The notes beneath the pieces were generated by a model, which did no database searches, was not told where the DNA came from, and saw only the letters and a list, made by a program, of their open reading frames with translations. Position numbers and translations under genes: made by a program. Of a stretch of DNA of 64,000 nt, positions 4,258 through 49,844 are shown in pieces (position 1 is the first letter of the stretch; each line of letters opens with the position of its first letter). The stretch is from Kyrpidia spormannii (GTDB taxonomy: Bacteria > Bacillota > Bacilli > Kyrpidiales > Kyrpidiaceae): positions 3,038,001 through 3,102,000 of the forward strand of contig NZ_CP024955.1 in the NCBI RefSeq assembly GCF_002804065.1, given 5' to 3'.

Positions 4258-5664
4258 GTGTCAAAATCCTCCCGCCAACCATCTCATCGCCTAGATTCCA
4301 TCGTGACGACTCACCCTTTAGAATGGCTTCAGGCAATTATTGCCTCGATTAACGATGGGATTCTTGTCATCGATAGCGCCGGAATCGTCAGAATGGTCAA
4401 CCCTGAATATACGAAAATAACCGGTGTCCGACCAGATGAAATCATTGGCAGGCCCTTGCTCGATGTTCGGCCCGGTGCCCAGCTTGTGTCCGTCCTGCAG
4501 GACGGACACAGTCGGTCGGGTGTGTTTCGCAGTGAAGGAGGGGTAGAATACGTCGTGGACATGGCGCCGATCATCATCGATGGCAAGGTGGTCGGTGCCG
4601 TGTCGATCAGCAAGGCGATGACAGAGGTACATGCCCTATACCAACAATTAAAAAAACACAAGGAGAAAGTGGATATCCTCGAGAAGACTATCGGGTCCAT
4701 GGCCAAAGCCCGGTATACATTTGAAGATATTATCGGAAAAGAAGGAGGGCTGCGCACCACCGTTACAATGGCGCGCAAAGCCGCAGAAACGGACCTGCCC
4801 GTACTCATTACTGGCGAAAGCGGGACTGGCAAGGAACTATTTGCCCAAGCAATCCATAACAAGAGTACCCGCGCCAATGGACCTTTTGTACCTGTCAACT
4901 GCTCGGCGATACCAAATGAGCTTTTGGAAAGTGAATTATTCGGTTACGAAGAAGGAGCTTTTACTGCCGCCAAACGGGGTGGTAAAGTCGGACTATTCGA
5001 GCTTGCCGATCACGGGACAATCTTTCTCGACGAAATCGGAGATCTTTCCTATCATCTCCAAGCCAAACTGTTGCGCGTCCTTCAAGAAAAAACTGTACGG
5101 CGGGTGGGGGGGACCCGGGAACGAACAGTTAATCTCCGCATTATTGCGGCGACCAACAAGAACTTGGATCAACTCATCCGGAAGTCCAGGTTCCGAGAAG
5201 ATCTGTATTATCGACTCAGTGTGGTCAACCTGCACATTCCGCCCTTGAGAGAGCGAAAAGAAGATCTATTGCCTCTAATATATTTCTTTTTGGGAAATTC
5301 GACGGTCGAATCCGGAAAACCTTGTTACTCGATCAGTGAAGAAGCGATCAATGTCTTACAATCCTATGATTGGCCCGGTAATGTCCGAGAACTTAAAAAT
5401 GCCATCGAATATGCGACCTGTATGGCAAACGACTGGACCATTACGGTAGAGGATTTGCCCAGCACCATCCCCAGGACCCTTGGAACTGTCAGGGAGCCAT
5501 CAAGTACGTTAAAGGCCAAAGTCCGGGAACTTGAACTGGAGACAATCAGAGCGACCATAGAGAAATACGGAAACAGTACTGGGGCAAAGAAACGGGCAGC
5601 TCAGGAACTGGGGATCTCCTTGGCCACTCTGTACAACAAAATGAATAGCTCCCCCAAGTCCTAA
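4258..5664 (+). CDS. Sigma-54-dependent transcriptional activator (PAS-AAA+-Fis HTH), GAFTAA variant
   Basis: The 468-residue protein has a PAS sensor (about 20-125), a short coiled linker, an AAA+ ATPase (about 155-400) and a C-terminal Fis-type helix-turn-helix (about 430-466). Walker A is GESGTGKE (186-193) and Walker B is IFLDE (255-259). The loop that contacts sigma-54 reads GAFTAA (233-238) instead of the usual GAFTGA. The GTG at 4258 is preferred because AGGGGGAG ends seven bases before it; an earlier GTG at 4252 lies against that site. It probably controls the CoA-transferase/transporter operon directly downstream, whose -24/-12 promoter and paired inverted repeats lie between the genes. 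Confidence 0.92.
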   Translation: MSKSSRQPSHRLDSIVTTHPLEWLQAIIASINDGILVIDSAGIVRMVNPEYTKITGVRPDEIIGRPLLDVRPGAQLVSVLQDGHSRSGVFRSEGGVEYVVDMAPIIIDGKVVGAVSISKAMTEVHALYQQLKKHKEKVDILEKTIGSMAKARYTFEDIIGKEGGLRTTVTMARKAAETDLPVLITGESGTGKELFAQAIHNKSTRANGPFVPVNCSAIPNELLESELFGYEEGAFTAAKRGGKVGLFELADHGTIFLDEIGDLSYHLQAKLLRVLQEKTVRRVGGTRERTVNLRIIAATNKNLDQLIRKSRFREDLYYRLSVVNLHIPPLRERKEDLLPLIYFFLGNSTVESGKPCYSISEEAINVLQSYDWPGNVRELKNAIEYATCMANDWTITVEDLPSTIPRTLGTVREPSSTLKAKVRELELETIRATIEKYGNSTGAKKRAAQELGISLATLYNKMNSSPKS

Positions 5665-39254: not shown

Positions 39255-40409
39255 TAGTGCCCTTTCAGGCAATGTAGTTGGACAAATCGGAAGGAATGGC
39301 CAGTTGTCTGTCGAATGATCATCCCAGGTGGTGATCATCATGTGCATCTTTGTCCGAGACCTGACACCTGAAGAGGGCAATAAACTTGTAAAGATTGCTC
39401 GCAAAGGATCCAACCCCGTTGAAGTGCGACGTGCTTTGGTCGTGTTGGCTTCCGCTCAAAAGATGAAGGTGCCGGAGATCTCCGAGTTGTATCATCTGTC
39501 TCAAGAGCACATTCGTCACGTGATTCATGCCTTCAATCAGCATGGATTCGAGGCCTTAAAGCCTCGGTACAAGGGCGGACGACCGCGGACCTTTACCGAA
39601 GAACAACGAGCCGCGATCATTGAGTTGGCCCAGATCCCGCCAAACACCCTGGGTTTGCCCTTTACCCATTGGTCACTGTCCAAGCTCAAAGAGGAGGCCG
39701 AAAGGCGGGGCATCGTGACCTCCATTAGCATTGAGACTATCCGTGTCATTCTGGAGGAAGCCGACATCACCTACCAACACACCAAGACATGGAAAGCCTC
39801 GAATGATCCTGACTTTGAGGTAAAAAAAACGAGTCCAGTCGCTCTACCGGAATCCGCCCAAAGACGGACGGGTCATCTGCGTTGACGAGTTTGGACCGTT
39901 GTCCATTCAGCCGTTTTCCGGTTGCGGATGGTACCCGAAAAGTCGGCCCGATCGATTGCCGGCAACGTACCGCGGCACCCACGGGGTGAGGCACTTGTTT
40001 GCGGCTCTGGATCTGAAAGCGGATAAACTGTATGGGCACGTCTCATCCAGCAAGAAGCACCAGGACATACTGCGTTTTCTCAAGGTGCTCCGCCGGCGGT
40101 ATCACCGCTCTGAACGGCTGTACGTGGTCTTGGACAATTTTTCACCTCACAAGCATCGTACTGTGACTGAATGGGCTGCAGAAAACAATGTAGAACTGGT
40201 TTTCACACCGACCCAGGCATCATGGTTGAACCGCATCAAAAGCCACTTTGCACCCTTGCGATCCTTTGTGTTGCGTGGGAGTAACTATCCTAATCACGAG
40301 GCATTGGCCACAGCGATTCGGTCGTACCTGCGTTGGCGAAACAAGCACAGCCGCCATGCCAGACTTCTACGTGAGCAAAAGAAGATCAAGGTTGTCTGAA
40401 GGGGCACTA
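39255..40409 (+). mobile_element. IS630-family insertion sequence, 1155 bp
   Basis: The ends are imperfect inverted repeats: left TAGTGCCCTTTCAGGCAA, right (reverse) TAGTGCCCCTTCAGACAA. Both ends carry the TA dinucleotide expected for IS630 target duplication. A second partial copy lies at 43072-43637. Confidence 0.85.
39340..40399 (+). pseudogene. IS630-family transposase in two frames (A8 slippery run)
   Basis: ATG 39340, with AGGTGGTG upstream, opens MCIFVRDLTPEEGNKLVKIAR, and the N-terminal helix-turn-helix frame runs to 39885. The DDE half (VICVDEFGPLSIQPF, then LYVVLDNFSPHKH and FTPTQASWLNRI) continues in the +1 frame to 40399. The shift sits at eight A (GGTAAAAAAAACG, near 39822-39829). 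Skipping one A joins the two into an about 350-residue transposase. Some IS630 elements use programmed slippage at such runs; otherwise the gene is broken. Confidence 0.75.
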
Positions 40410-43071: not shown

Positions 43072-43637
43072 CCTACCGGAATCCGCCCAAAGACGGACGG
43101 GTCATCTGCATTGACGAGTTTGGACCGTTGTCCATTCAGCCGTTTCCTGGTTGCGGATGGTACCCGAAGAGCCGGCCCGATCGATTGCCGGCGACGTACC
43201 GTCGCACCCACGGGGTGAGGCACTTGTTTGCAGCTCTGGATCTGAAAGCGGATAAGCTGTATGGGCACGTCTCATCCAGCAAGAAGCACCAGGATATTCT
43301 GCGTTTTCTCAAGGTGCTCCGCCGGCGGTATCACCGCTCTGAACGGCTGTACGTAGTCTTGGACAATTTTTCACCTCACAAGCATCGTACTGTGACTGAG
43401 TGGGCTGCAGAAAACAATGTAGAACTGGTTTTTACACCGACCCAGGCCTCATGGTTGAACCGAATCGAATGCCATTTTGCGCCGTTGCGATCGTTTGTGT
43501 TGCGTGGGAGTCACTATCCCAATCACGAGGCGTTGGCCACAGCGATTCGGTCGTACCTGCGTTGGCGAAACAAGCACAGCCGCATGCCAGACTTCTACGT
43601 GAGCAAAAGAAGATCAAGGTTCTCTGAAGGGGCATTA
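43072..43637 (+). mobile_element. IS630 3' half (second copy)
   Basis: The sequence from CTACCGGAATCCGCCCAAAG to the right end (GAAGGGGCATTA) is almost identical to the 3' half of the IS630 copy at 39255-40409, but the 5' half is missing. A lost C near 43584 shifts the last residues. Its left edge joins the IS256 right end directly. Confidence 0.75.
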
Positions 43638-44259: not shown

Positions 44260-44961
44260 GCCCGTCATCTCCTTTTTCGAGTTTTGGTCGTGCAAATCGA
44301 GTAGGAGGGAGCGGCTAGCCCCCGTCCTCTCACACCACCGGACATGCGGGTCCGCATCCGGCGGTTCACCAAGATTGACGAAGCCTTCGGTAACGTTCGC
44401 TTAAACTCATCAACCCTTGGGCCTGCCAGTAGGCGTTGCCCAGGACTCGATTCATCGGCCCATGGGCCATTCGCCATGGCCCTTTGCGGGCGTTGGCGAA
44501 TTGGTGCACCACCCACTCCGGCAATCCCGGTGCGCGCAGTTCACGATATCGCGTCCGTACCCGTTTCCACTGTCTCCAGAGACACATTCGCAGCCTCCGC
44601 CGTATCCATCCTTCGATTTCTTCGAAGGTGCTCGGCGTTTCCGCCAGGGCAAAGTATCCGATCCATCCGCCCAGATATGTGTTCAGCCGTCGGATTCGTT
44701 CCTCCATGGCGATCGGTGTGTCCTCGCCGTGAGGGCTCGGATCTTGGCCTTGACCCGGTCGATCGACTGCCTGGCCAGGCGAATCCGGATTTCCCCGGCT
44801 TTGCGTTTGTACATGCTGAATCCCAGAAACTTGAGTTTCCACGGTGGGTCCACCGTGCTCTTCTGCTCGTTGAGTTTGAGTTTTTAGCCGCTCCTGCAGG
44901 AATTTCCGGACACTCGCCAGGACTCTCTCCCCCGCCCGTTTGCTTCAGACGTAGATGTTGC

Positions 44962-46823
44962 GGTGAGTAGCCCCGGGGAGTTTCACCCCGAGGCCCTCTC
45001 AGAACCGGACGTGAACCTCTCGGCTCATCCGGCTCCCGTTATCTAGCCTAAGGTAAAATCCCCATTTGCCAATGCACGAACAGTTTCGGTTCACGCCTGG
45101 CGATTTTCCCGAGCCAGTGTGTCGCCCGCCGCTGGTGGCTAGCAAACTTCTTGTATTTGCGTCGTACCCAGCGAACCAAAGCTCGGTTCATGTGCCGGAG
45201 CACAGAGTACAGTTCCGATTTGTAGAAGCGCCCATAGTATTGGATCCAGCCCCTAATGACGGGATTGAACATCCTGGACAGATCCTCAAGGGTCTTGTCC
45301 GGCTTCAGATGCATGCGCCAATCGTGAATCGTCTGCCGCATGGCCTTCTTCGCCTTGTTGCTTACCGCTGGGGTGAAGTTGATGAAATGCTTGCCATATC
45401 TGTTCTTGGACCTTCGCGGTCGAAACGTGTACCCCAGAAAATCAAATTTCGTTTCCGGGTGCTCCCCACGTCGATCGTCATCTTTGCAATAGACGATACG
45501 CGTTTTGGTCGGATGGAGTTCAAGCCCGCATTCTTTGAACCGCTTTTCCAAGCTGGCTCGTAGCTTCTGCGCACCTTCCAGGCTATTACAGTGTGCTACC
45601 GCGTCATCAGCATACCGGGCAAACGGTTTGTCCGGATGGTTCTTGTCCATCCATTTGTCAAACGCGTAATGAAGAAACAGATTAGCCAGCACCGGGCTGA
45701 TTACACCGCCTTGCGGCGTACCCTTCGTTCGCTCCACCACGGTCCCATCCGACAACTGAAACGGTGCCTTCAGCCATCTTTCAATGTACAGAATCACCCA
45801 TGGGTTATCCGTGTGTTTACGAACAGCCTTCATCAGCAGCTCGTGGTCGATGTTGTCAAACAGCCCCTTGATGTCAAACTCCAGTACCCAGTCGTATCGC
45901 CAACATCTTTGCCGGGTGACCGCAAGCGCGTCCGCTGCCGACTTCCCTGGCCGGTAGCCATAAGAGTCCTCATGGAAGTATGGCTCCACTTTGGGCTCGA
46001 AGTACATCTTCACGACCATTTGTGCGACGCGGTCCGCCACCGTGGGTACTCCAAGAATCCTTGTTCCTCCGTTTTTCTTGGGTATTTCCACTGCCTTGAC
46101 TGGTGGAGGAAAATAGCTGCCGGAGGACATCCGGTTCCAAATCTTGTAGAGGTTGTTTTTCAAATTGGCCTCAAACTGCCCTAGGCTTTCCTCGTCTACC
46201 CCAGCCGCTCCCCGGTTCGCCTTGACTCGTCGGAACGCCTCAAGCACCACATGTTTAGAGATTTTGTACGGCTTTGTTTTGTCCATTGGCTCCTCCCTTG
46301 CGGTTGACCTCTGCACAAAACTGGATAACACAACCCCTTCACTCCACTTCCATTACGAAGCTTCGTCGCTACTACGGGTTGTTCCGCCCCTGCACCTCGC
46401 ATCGGTACTTTCGTCCTTGCGGGTCCTCCGCTTGGAGTTTTCCCTTCGCATCGAAGTGCAGGTTCCCACGTTCCGAATCGAAGCCTGTGCCGCGTTCACG
46501 CCGCCTTCATGCCGGTCACCGCCTGGACAGTAAGCAGGTTTCCTCCAGACTGATCCCGGGCTAACGACTACCTCCCGGTTTTGATGACGTCCCTACGCTT
46601 TCGACACGTTATCAGCGGTTCACTGGTGTTCGTCTCCATCGGCACGCACCTGACGAGGTCTGGCCTCGCCTTTTCCGTAACGCTCACTACCATGGCTTTT
46701 GACCACAGCAGCTTACGGTGGTTTGAAGCCTCCACCTGCATGGCGACTTCGAGGGGCCTGCCCTCATCTTCGATTCGGCATGGCCTTCGAGCCATCACCT
46801 AGCTCGTCGCATTCGTGGCGCAC
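44962..46823 (-). mobile_element. Group II intron B nested inside intron A (twintron)
   Basis: The minus strand starts GTGCGCCACG at 46823 and ends near CTACTCACC at 44962, after a domain V hairpin (GAGCCGGATGAGCC / GGTTCACGTCCGGTTC, near 45000-45035). Removing it leaves GATGACT-GCAACATC, the same length as the matching stretch of copy C, with the YADD reading frame restored. The exact 3' edge is uncertain by a base or two because the AY ending is not perfect. Confidence 0.75.
45048..46286 (-). CDS. ltrA: Group II intron reverse transcriptase/maturase (intron B)
   Basis: 412 residues from ATG 46286 with AGGGAGGAG upstream. Reverse transcriptase blocks: ILGVPTVADRVAQMVVKMYFEP, SYGYRPGKSAADALAVTR, DIKGLFDNIDHELL, KGTPQGGVISPVLANLFLHYAFD and the catalytic YADD (FARYADDAVAHC). 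A maturase X domain follows (MFNPVIRGWIQYYGRFYKS). No HNH endonuclease domain is seen. It is intact and clearly different from the reverse transcriptases of introns A and C. It helps its own intron splice and insert into DNA. Confidence 0.93.
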   Translation of the reverse strand: MDKTKPYKISKHVVLEAFRRVKANRGAAGVDEESLGQFEANLKNNLYKIWNRMSSGSYFPPPVKAVEIPKKNGGTRILGVPTVADRVAQMVVKMYFEPKVEPYFHEDSYGYRPGKSAADALAVTRQRCWRYDWVLEFDIKGLFDNIDHELLMKAVRKHTDNPWVILYIERWLKAPFQLSDGTVVERTKGTPQGGVISPVLANLFLHYAFDKWMDKNHPDKPFARYADDAVAHCNSLEGAQKLRASLEKRFKECGLELHPTKTRIVYCKDDDRRGEHPETKFDFLGYTFRPRRSKNRYGKHFINFTPAVSNKAKKAMRQTIHDWRMHLKPDKTLEDLSRMFNPVIRGWIQYYGRFYKSELYSVLRHMNRALVRWVRRKYKKFASHQRRATHWLGKIARREPKLFVHWQMGILP

Positions 46824-47955
46824 AGTCATCCGCATACCGGACGAACTTGTGGCCCCTCTTTTCACCCCATTCACCATGATCCCTGCCTGGAGATACCGGC
46901 GAATGACCTTGAGCACTCGTTTGTCCGTGACCTTCCGGGCTACCCGGGCCATAAGGATGTCATGATTCACCCGGTCAAAGAACTTTTCCAGGTCCATGTC
47001 CACGGCCCATTCGTATCCTTCTTCCACATACTGCCTCGCCTTCTTGACCGCCTCGTGTGCCCTTCTTCCGGGTCGGAACCCGTAGCTGGCCTCCGAAAAT
47101 TGCGGGTCAAAGATGGGCGTCAGCACCTGCAGAAGTGCCTGCTGGATCAGGCGGTCCATCACGGTGGGGATCCCCAGCATCCGCTTGCCTCCCCCGGGTT
47201 TCGGGATTTCGACCCGGCGCACGGGCTGCGGTCGGTAGATCCCCGTGAGCAGCTCTTCCCGGATGCGCGACCACTCGGCTCGGATCTGTTCCCGGAGGTT
47301 TTCCGTGGGAATGCCGTCCACGCCGGGAGCCCCCTTGTTCTGCTCCACCCGCTTCAGGGCGGCCAGCATGTTCTGCCTGGCCACCACCTTCTCCATCAGG
47401 CCGTCACCTTGTTCTCCGCGAGGTGAAGCTCCGCTTTGTGCCGGAGAAGGGCTCGGCTCTCCCACGGTCCCCCGTGGCTTCACCACTTCCTCCCGTGGGT
47501 AGTCCCTGTTCAGGGTTTTCGGCTGTCTTCGTCCTTCTCGCGAACGCACCGGTTTCACCTCTGTCTTGATGTTCGGGCCTTCCCCCGGAGTTCATGACCT
47601 CCTGGGTACTATGCCCTCTGCTGACTCCTGCCGGTTCAACCGAACCTCTCGATCCGGATTGCCAGTCCCCTGGCGTATCCGGCAGGCCTCCCCGGGTAAG
47701 AGCGTTGACCTTCCCCCCGCGCCCGCCTCATATACTCCGCCGCCCTTTGGCAGCCTTTGGATTTCGCTGTGTCTTGCCAGCTCATCCGAACGGCGTAGCC
47801 TCGTATGAGGTTCTTGTTCATCGGGCCGTGGGTTTGCCTCCAGCTTCCTTCGGATCCCACCTCACGATGGACACCCTTGCCTTTGGCTAGCAGACTCGTG
47901 CTGCCTCGCCTGCAGTGGACTTTCACCACCCAGTCAACGCCCATGCCGGGCGCAC

Positions 47956-49844
47956 ATCGAGTAGGAGGGGGCGGCTAGCCCCCGTCCTCTCACACCACCG
48001 GACATGCGGGTCCGCATCCGGCGGTTCACCAAGATTGACGAAGCCTTCGGTAACGTTCGGTTAAGCTCATGAGTCCTTGGGCCTGCCAATAGGCGTTCCC
48101 CAAGGCTCGATTCATCGGCCCATGGGCCATCCGCCACGGTCCTTTGCGGGCATTGGCAAATTGATGAACGACCCACTCCGGCAGCCCTAGCGCGCGCAGT
48201 TCACGGTATCGCGTCCGTACCCGTTTCCACTGTTTCCAGAGACACATCCGCAGCCTCCGCCGGATCCATCCTTCGATTTCTTCGAAGGTGCTCGGCGTCT
48301 CCGCCAGGGCAAAGTATCCCATCCATCCGCCCAGATACGTGTTCAGCCGCCGGATGCGTTCCTCCATGGCGATCGGTGTGTTCCTCGCCGTGAGGGTTCG
48401 GATCTTGGCCTTGACCCGCTCGATCGACTGTCTGGCCAAGCGAATGCGGATTTCCCCGGCTTTGCGTTTGTACATGCTGAATCCCAGAAACTTCAGTTTC
48501 CACGGTCGGTCCACCGTGCTCTTCTGCTCGTTGAGTTTGAGTCTTAGCCGCTCCTGCAGGAATGTCCGGACACTGGCCAGGACTCTCTCCCCCGCCCGTT
48601 TGCTTCGAACGTAGATGTTAGCATCATCCGCATACCGGACGAACTTGTGACCTCTCTTTTCCAGTTCTTTGTCCAGGTCATCCAGAAGGATATTCGCCAA
48701 CAGGGGACTCAGCGGCCCGCCCTGTGGTGTCCCTTCCTCTCTTTCCATGACCACTCCGTTCACCATGATCCCTGCCTGGAGGTACCGGCGAATGACCTTG
48801 AGCACTCGTTTGTCCGTGACCCTCCGGGCTACCCGGGCCATCAGGATGTCATGATTCACTCGGTCAAAGAACTTTTCCAGGTCCATGTCCACGGCCCATT
48901 CGTATCCTTCTTCCACATACTGCCTCGCCTTCTTGACCGCCTCGTGTGCCCTTCTTCCGGGTCGGAACCCGTAGCTGGCCTCCGAAAATTGCGGGTCAAA
49001 GATGGGCGTCAGCACCTGCAGAAGTGCCTGCTGGATCAGGCGGTCCATCACGGTGGGGATCCCCAGCATCCGCTTGCCTCCCCCGGGTTTCGGGATTTCG
49101 ACCCGGCGCACGGGCTGCGGTCGGTAGATCCCCGTGAGCAGCTCTTCCCGGATGCGCGGCCACTCGGCTCGGATCTGTTCCCGGAGGTTTTCCGTGGGAA
49201 TGCCGTCCACGCCGGGGGCACCCTTGTTCTGCTCCACCCGCTTCAGGGCGGCCAGCATGTTCTGCCTGGCCACCACCTTCTCCATCAGGCCGTCACCTTG
49301 TTCTCCGCGAGGTGAAGCTCCGCTTTGTGCCGGAGAAGGGCTCGGCTCTCCCACGGTCCCCCGTGGCTTCACCACTTCCTCCCGTGGGTAGTCCCTGTTC
49401 AGGGTTTTCGGCTGTCTTCGTCCTTCTCGCGAACGCACCGGTTTCACCTCTGTCTTGATGTTCGGGCCTTCCCCCGGAGTTCATGACCTCCTGGGTACTA
49501 TGCCCTCTGCTGACTCCTGCCGGTTCAACCGAACCTCTCGATCCGGGTTGCCAGTCCCCTGGCGTATCCGGCAGGCCTCCCCGGGTAAGAGCGTTGACCT
49601 TCCCCCCGCGCCCGCCTCATATACTCCGCCGCCCTTTGGCAGCCTTTGGATTTCGCTGTGTCTTGCCAGCTCATCCGAACGGCGTAGCCTCGTATGAGGT
49701 TCTTGTTCATCGGGCCGTGGGTTTGCCTCCAGCTTCCTTCGGATCCCACCTCACGATGGACACCCTTGCCTTTGGCTAGCAGACTCGTGCTGCCTCGCCT
49801 GCAGTGGACTTTCACCACCCAGTCAACGCCCATGCCGGGCGCAC
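47956..49844 (-). mobile_element. Group IIC intron copy C, complete, 1889 bp
   Basis: Starts GTGCGCCCGGC at 49844, right after a rho-independent terminator (AGCCCGC...GCGGGCT, TTTTTTCTT), and ends CTACTCGAT at 47956. Domain V/VI are visible as CCGGATGCGG...CCGCATGTCCGG (47995-48025). Group IIC introns are known to insert just after terminator stems, so this fits. Intron copy A is attached directly to its 3' end. Confidence 0.88.
48026..49285 (-). CDS. ltrA: Group II intron reverse transcriptase/maturase (intron C)
   Basis: 419 residues from ATG 49285, with AAGGTGA seven bases ahead; the frame is open back to a GTG at 49447 without a good site. Reverse transcriptase blocks in order: MLGIPTVMDRLIQQALLQVL, SYGFRPGRRAHEAVKKARQYV, VDMDLEKFFDRVNHDILM, EGTPQGGPLSPLLANILLDDLDKEL, RYADDANIYV and a maturase X domain (LNTYLGGWMGYFALAETPSTFEEIEGWIRRRLR). 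Length and lack of an endonuclease domain fit group IIC. Probably active. Confidence 0.93.
   Translation of the reverse strand: MEKVVARQNMLAALKRVEQNKGAPGVDGIPTENLREQIRAEWPRIREELLTGIYRPQPVRRVEIPKPGGGKRMLGIPTVMDRLIQQALLQVLTPIFDPQFSEASYGFRPGRRAHEAVKKARQYVEEGYEWAVDMDLEKFFDRVNHDILMARVARRVTDKRVLKVIRRYLQAGIMVNGVVMEREEGTPQGGPLSPLLANILLDDLDKELEKRGHKFVRYADDANIYVRSKRAGERVLASVRTFLQERLRLKLNEQKSTVDRPWKLKFLGFSMYKRKAGEIRIRLARQSIERVKAKIRTLTARNTPIAMEERIRRLNTYLGGWMGYFALAETPSTFEEIEGWIRRRLRMCLWKQWKRVRTRYRELRALGLPEWVVHQFANARKGPWRMAHGPMNRALGNAYWQAQGLMSLTERYRRLRQSW

Follow-up and report, generated by a model that had tools for sequence, protein, structure and literature searches.

Nested group II introns of Methanosarcina were reportedly treated by Dai & Zimmerly in 2003 (RNA 9:14). 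In Methanosarcina acetivorans and M. mazei, introns form nests by homing into the reverse transcriptase (RT) genes that other group II introns carry (PMC4424553, PMC1712230, PMC2882425); these nests are described for two archaea. The TeI3/TeI4 twintrons of Thermosynechococcus elongatus evolved through insertion at a fixed site in another intron, and identical inner introns are found in diverged outer introns; these inner introns are ORF-less and have their place between the first and second ATG of a single host family (PMC2882425). In Trichodesmium, the inner of two nested bacterial group II introns occupies domain I of its host and probably must splice first (PMC4649490). RmInt1 from Sinorhizobium meliloti is a class D / IIB3 intron without an endonuclease domain (PMC3123198, PMC5894124) that targets the insertion sequence ISRm2011-2 (IS630 family). 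Its measured geometry places IBS2 at -13..-9, an unpaired gap at -8, and IBS1 at -7..-1 (PMC3123198).

The intron described here, intron B, was found in a window, the whole 64,000-nucleotide stretch of Kyrpidia spormannii DNA that was analyzed. It lacks an endonuclease domain and has the IBS2/gap/IBS1 spacing of RmInt1, which agrees with class D / IIB3; both introns target mobile elements, but B is aimed at the codons of the RT active-site motif YADD. As in the Methanosarcina nests, it homes into RT genes carried by other group II introns, whereas its lineage covers bacteria as well as archaea and its guide logic could be worked out. It shares the fixed site with TeI3/TeI4 but uses an active-site motif in diverse RTs, and unlike the Trichodesmium inner intron it lies in the ORF of host domain IV. 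A literature search that covered few subscription papers returned no text that treats the YADD codons as a target for homing or describes a codon-tolerant guide. Methanosarcina already provides examples of homing into intron RT genes; what appears to be new is the guide at codon level and the breadth of the lineage. B is very probably an RmInt1-like mobile intron of a lineage specialized on RT active-site codons, mainly those of group II introns. This assignment draws on its boundaries, its second copy, an empty site, the site shared across the clade, covarying guide–target pairs, and off-target insertions, all of them read from sequence; present-day splicing and mobility of B are inferred.

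Two class C group II introns lie head to tail on the minus strand. Intron C (47956–49844), related to A but unsplit, is complete by its Rfam matches and RT ORF (48026–49447), and intron A (44296–47955) follows directly behind it (border 47955/47956), as defined by Rfam domains and alignment to C. The class C type is indicated by a hairpin and T run ahead of C and other copies. C adjoins the terminator hairpin directly (upstream exon GCCCGCCTTTGTGCGGGCTTTTTTCTT/GTGCG), and copies 99–100% identical to it are found elsewhere in the genome. Class C tandems of two or three copies, head to tail with little or no spacer, occur at four places in the genome, and the array probably grows via re-insertion at the same terminator. 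Two IS630-like transposase stretches (39844–40143 and 43073–43372), 96% identical to each other, lie near the array.

The sequence-only reading had seen a twintron in A, with B inserted behind the YADD codons and carrying its own intact maturase, and both the order of the Rfam domains and the exact borders agree with it. For two distinct group II introns, the D1–D4 and D5 models match in correct order, with the whole of copy C behind them: A matches at 47701–47871 (D1–D4) and 44296–44366 (D5/D6), and B at 46648–46765 and 44962–45037 (RF01999, RF00029). B (44962–46823, minus strand, 1862 nt) is delimited by the D1D4-2 and Intron_gpII models, by its second copy and by empty sites, and lies wholly within A, with the borders of both introns present; these borders and the reading frame are compatible with splicing. 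It starts with GTGCGCC at 46823, ends with CTACTCACC at 44962, and splits A between GGTATGCGGATGACT and GCAACATC, that is, after YADD plus one base. The target site on the minus strand of A (46824–46836) consists of IBS2 TATGC, gap G, and IBS1 GATGACT, which are the codons Tyr-Ala-Asp-Asp plus one base, and the splice product of A predicted from the borders joins TATGCGGATGACT to GCAACATC. The typical hallmarks of a group II intron are present in B: the GTGCG start, D5, a branch-point A in D6 located seven bases before the 3′ end (D5/D6 at 44962–45037, minus strand, by Rfam and sequence), and an RT/maturase ORF. The intron-encoded protein (IEP; 45048–46331, minus strand) is an intact frame of 427 amino acids with a probable ATG start at 46286; it comprises RT and maturase X (Pfam RVT_1 and GIIM) and reaches 438 bits against the group II RT/maturase family, for which the cut-off is 300 bits. 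The ...ACC 3′ end deviates from the usual AY, yet it is required by the host frames and the empty site. An alternative end at ...CAC with C as exon position +1 was rejected, because none of the host frames would then be kept and the empty site contradicts it.

A search for B and its target motif, which the sequence-only reading had proposed, returned one further B in the 3.35-Mb, single-contig genome (G000:C1:2296404-2301005), so that B is not a lone fragment; the motif is the YADD-codon word that is paired by the guides of B. The two copies (B1 and B2, the only ones in the genome) are 99.5% identical. The second also lies within a class C intron and has an identical insertion point, reading GGATGATG-B-CCAACATC as against GGATGATGCCAACATC in unsplit copies; it is itself interrupted by 2.6 kb of inserted DNA (G000:C1:2296617-2299248) that is bordered by a 5-base repeat. 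Its host differs from a tandem neighbor by 1 base in 1886, which makes this neighbor an empty site and fixes B as GTGCGCC...CTACTCACC without target duplication. The hosts of the two copies differ by ~6% and the copies themselves by 0.5%, and separate entry of B is therefore most likely. TAYGCNGAYGAY sites number 27 in the genome (4 for the reversed control), 18 of them within RT genes. All unsplit class C copies read GATGATGC(C/T)AACATC. The bases that touch B in A (46824–46830 and 44957–44961) are GATGACT/GC and encode YADD-Cys, whereas the other genome copies read GATGATGC and encode YADD-Ala; the A bases match the guide of B better than those of all other copies.

The two guides of B lie on the minus strand at 46594–46598 (EBS2, GCGUA), pairing with TAYGC at -13..-9, and at 46563–46569 (EBS1, AGUCGUU, in a hairpin loop), pairing with GAYGAYU at -7..-1. 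Position -8 stays unpaired between IBS2 and IBS1. Both copies belong to the YADD lineage, being inserted at TAYGCNGAYGAYN with matching EBS1 and EBS2, 12 of 12 guide positions pairing in B1 and 11 of 12 in B2. The EBS1 hairpin stem covaries (158/160 stem cells paired), and EBS1 and IBS1 pair in 332 of 350 cells across 50 distinct guide–exon combinations, compared with a mean of 196 and a maximum of 229 in 2000 shuffles. With one exon per EBS1 type (32 types), 212 of 224 cells are paired (shuffled 114, maximum 142 of 5000). In relatives aimed elsewhere, guides and targets covary; for instance, the guides UAGCA/CGUUGUU of a relative in an IS3-type transposase gene (L114, RKGNCYDN^A) match TGCTA-C-GATAATG. 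Another candidate for EBS1, GUCAUC (...GACGUCAUCAAAACC...), fitted YADD but failed in relatives with other targets, where the AGUCGUU loop covaries instead.

Codon tolerance was read from 37 introns that had been chosen by their target word, so that the guide side alone is informative. A guide G stands opposite the third bases of Tyr, Asp, and Asp in 36, 35, and 35 of these introns, with T as the exon base in 20, 18, and 20. The third base of the Ala codon, which is unpaired, is G in 14, T in nine, C in eight, and A in six. Since G faces all three C/T positions and the fourfold-degenerate Ala base falls in the gap, synonymous codons are tolerated, and one guide should fit essentially all YADD spellings.

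For B, a mechanism can be proposed in which its RNA would pair with the sense-strand word TAYGC-N-GAYGAYN, EBS2 with Tyr-Ala and EBS1 with Asp-Asp plus one base, leaving one base unpaired at the fourfold-degenerate Ala position. Reverse splicing would then place B one base into the codon that comes next, and nearly all synonymous YADD spellings would fit because a guide G at each C/T-degenerate position can pair with both bases. The site is conserved, as it is essential to the host retroelement, and the number of targets would grow whenever other introns multiply. A guide complementary to YADD codons lets the lineage settle within other jumping introns, and because B lies in the RT frame of A (domain IV), outside the ribozyme core, it could splice without blocking the folding of A. 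The reason for introns within introns may thus be that the inner one is a specialist hyperparasite, whose target no active RT can mutate away. B would also be a natural case in which an RNA guide recognizes a motif of a protein through the codons for it, which may be useful in considering target choice and for programmable introns (targetrons).

The tolerance of rG·dT pairs may be the functional reason for the G's. They could instead be a historical accident of an otherwise genuine YADD homing, without adaptation to synonymous codons, and this explanation, although somewhat doubtful, keeps appreciable weight. The lineage is related, and a conserved target is expected to come with conserved guides; relatives aimed at IS66 retain the same UCGUC core. 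On the other hand, G opposite T is kept in 56 of 58 T-bearing exon cells, where A would pair better, and several relatives have U opposite the R of Glu codons.

The specialized lineage was delineated by scanning 84,980 genomes with the B protein, blind to the target, which gave 80 loci; further loci came from genome, plasmid, and Methanosarcina searches. The 5′ ends of the relatives were set with a profile of the first 330 nt of the intron and their 3′ ends with a D5/D6 profile. Most close relatives are inserted at the same point of the coding frame, [Y/F][A/G]DD plus one base. Of the two sides of the IEP tree, one, with an SH-aLRT support of 97, contains 44 rows, comprising 34 YADD introns, seven at other sites, and three without a resolved site. 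All 34 YADD introns fall on this single side, where they make up 34 of the 41 members with a resolved site, each exactly at YADD+1 and two of them in non-RT genes. When the flanks are joined, the RT frame continues in most hosts (YADD^FKIMC, YADD^CNIYV, YADD^LVIL). The group_II_RT_mat profile is matched by 18 of 20 host 5′ parts, with most matches stopping at profile position 215 of 353. The clade spans Bacillota, other bacteria, and methanogens, with hosts in Alicyclobacillus, Desulfosporosinus, Pelotomaculum, Paenibacillus, Sulfobacillus and Sinorhizobium plasmids, a planctomycete MAG, Methanosarcina, Methanophagales, and others; few relatives were found in viral and phage collections. A 5.8-Mb Methanosarcina genome carries three B-clade introns at YADD+1, so that part of this lineage was already in view. 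In one locus (L126, 1219–4086), a YADD-type intron is closely followed by a different class D-like intron, and insertions can stack.

The shared site could also reflect a single old insertion that was inherited with its host, the nest spreading as one composite, which we regard as very improbable. The position of B in domain IV permits such movement, and some pairs would suit it: B and its relative L096 are 97% identical as introns with host RTs at 81%, and L105 and L106 show 95% intron and 84% host identity. Against it, B proteins that are 96–98% identical sit in host RTs only 53–54% identical (98% and 54% for L096/L097), which points to repeated homing with jumps between unrelated hosts. Moreover, 56 pairs with an IEP identity of at least 80% have a median host identity of 47%, and two of the insertions occupy genes other than those for RTs.

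These two insertions also bear on what selects the site. One relative interrupts a phage terminase large-subunit gene (L115, QYADD, position 4470) and another a MutS-like gene (L116, TSYADD, position 2660), and both are off-target insertions at chance TACGC-N-GACGAY words. A specificity owed chiefly to the protein, or to a link with RT-gene transcripts, is just as improbable as a composite. RmInt1-type introns do require a few distal exon bases as well (PMC3123198), but the guides covary with their targets across 32 EBS1 types, and the terminase and MutS-like insertions have only the DNA word in common, which means that a nucleic-acid guide, and not the identity of an RT gene, picks the site. 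Two further clade members (L123 and L127) are found in an ORF6N-domain gene (RFPED^F; in L123, ORF6N by motif) with guides altered to fit. The seven clade members with other targets indicate that the specificity of the B lineage is not fixed. Since a single tree shows guides covarying with homes, it becomes testable how group II introns choose new homes.

A chance landing of B in a class C intron that was decaying, as the sequence-only reading had suspected of a dying host, is scarcely credible: A is truly broken (91-nt loss, TGA), but the same site is occupied in a second host copy with an intact upstream RT frame, the same codon is reused across dozens of unrelated RT genes, and the guides pair with the target.

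The damage to A itself was correctly noticed, though the deletion given as 90 bases is one of 91 nt (between 46863 and 46864, minus strand, by alignment and identity profile), as C 1092 and C 1183 align to one A base. The loss shifts the frame of A on its own, and an in-frame TGA follows five codons behind B (44945–44947, minus strand). Joining the flanks of B gives the same length as copy C at this place, as had been stated, though three bases around the junction differ. The expected frame repair holds locally, where removal of B yields YADD-CNIYV, but not for the RT protein of A, which is beyond rescue through splicing of B. The first 1092 nt of A are 99.1–99.5% identical to C-type copies, whereas the B-bearing part from the gap onward (44296–46862) shows about 93% identity to every copy, and the 38 nt from the gap to B carry bases of the other subfamily. 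A therefore appears to be a chimera, made after the entry of B, in which the 91-nt gap marks the junction of a C-type 5′ half with the divergent half that bears B; in this pattern the damage probably stems from recombination and not from B. By Rfam score, A has kept intact ribozyme ends, and help in trans could come from other class C copies.

The distant side of the IEP tree, where sites are readable, often leads to transposase genes, with insertion one base into the codon behind an acidic residue. Four class D-like introns (L161, L164, L166, L170) interrupt IS66 transposase genes at LHGDD^T, with IS66 confirmed by Pfam. The Mesorhizobium relative L171 and also L173 lie at TTYATCGACGAGA, VFIDE^T (DDE_3) of an IS630-type transposase, and their site bases are near the RmInt1 site bases given in PMC3123198. 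These IS630-site relatives (L171–L173) fall among transposase-targeted rows of the tree. HWxxE^N together with LHW.LD is ISAs1-like by motif, in short pieces unscored by Pfam, and further sites are ARWKIE^N and a DDE_Tnp_1 frame. Class D introns overall may aim degeneracy-tuned guides at codons of catalytic or equally conserved motifs in mobile-element enzymes, a generalization that could as well fail as hold. It would take in RT YADD, IS66 GDD, IS630 FIDE, ISAs1-like HWxIE, and IS3-type motifs, always with insertion after the first base of the following codon, G opposite Y, U opposite R, and the fourfold base skipped. If true, the RNA guide would in effect read a motif of amino acids whose alteration would cost the host element its function. 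For four other relatives (L087, L088, L174, L181), the sequence suggests a site between the D5 and D6 domains of another group II intron.
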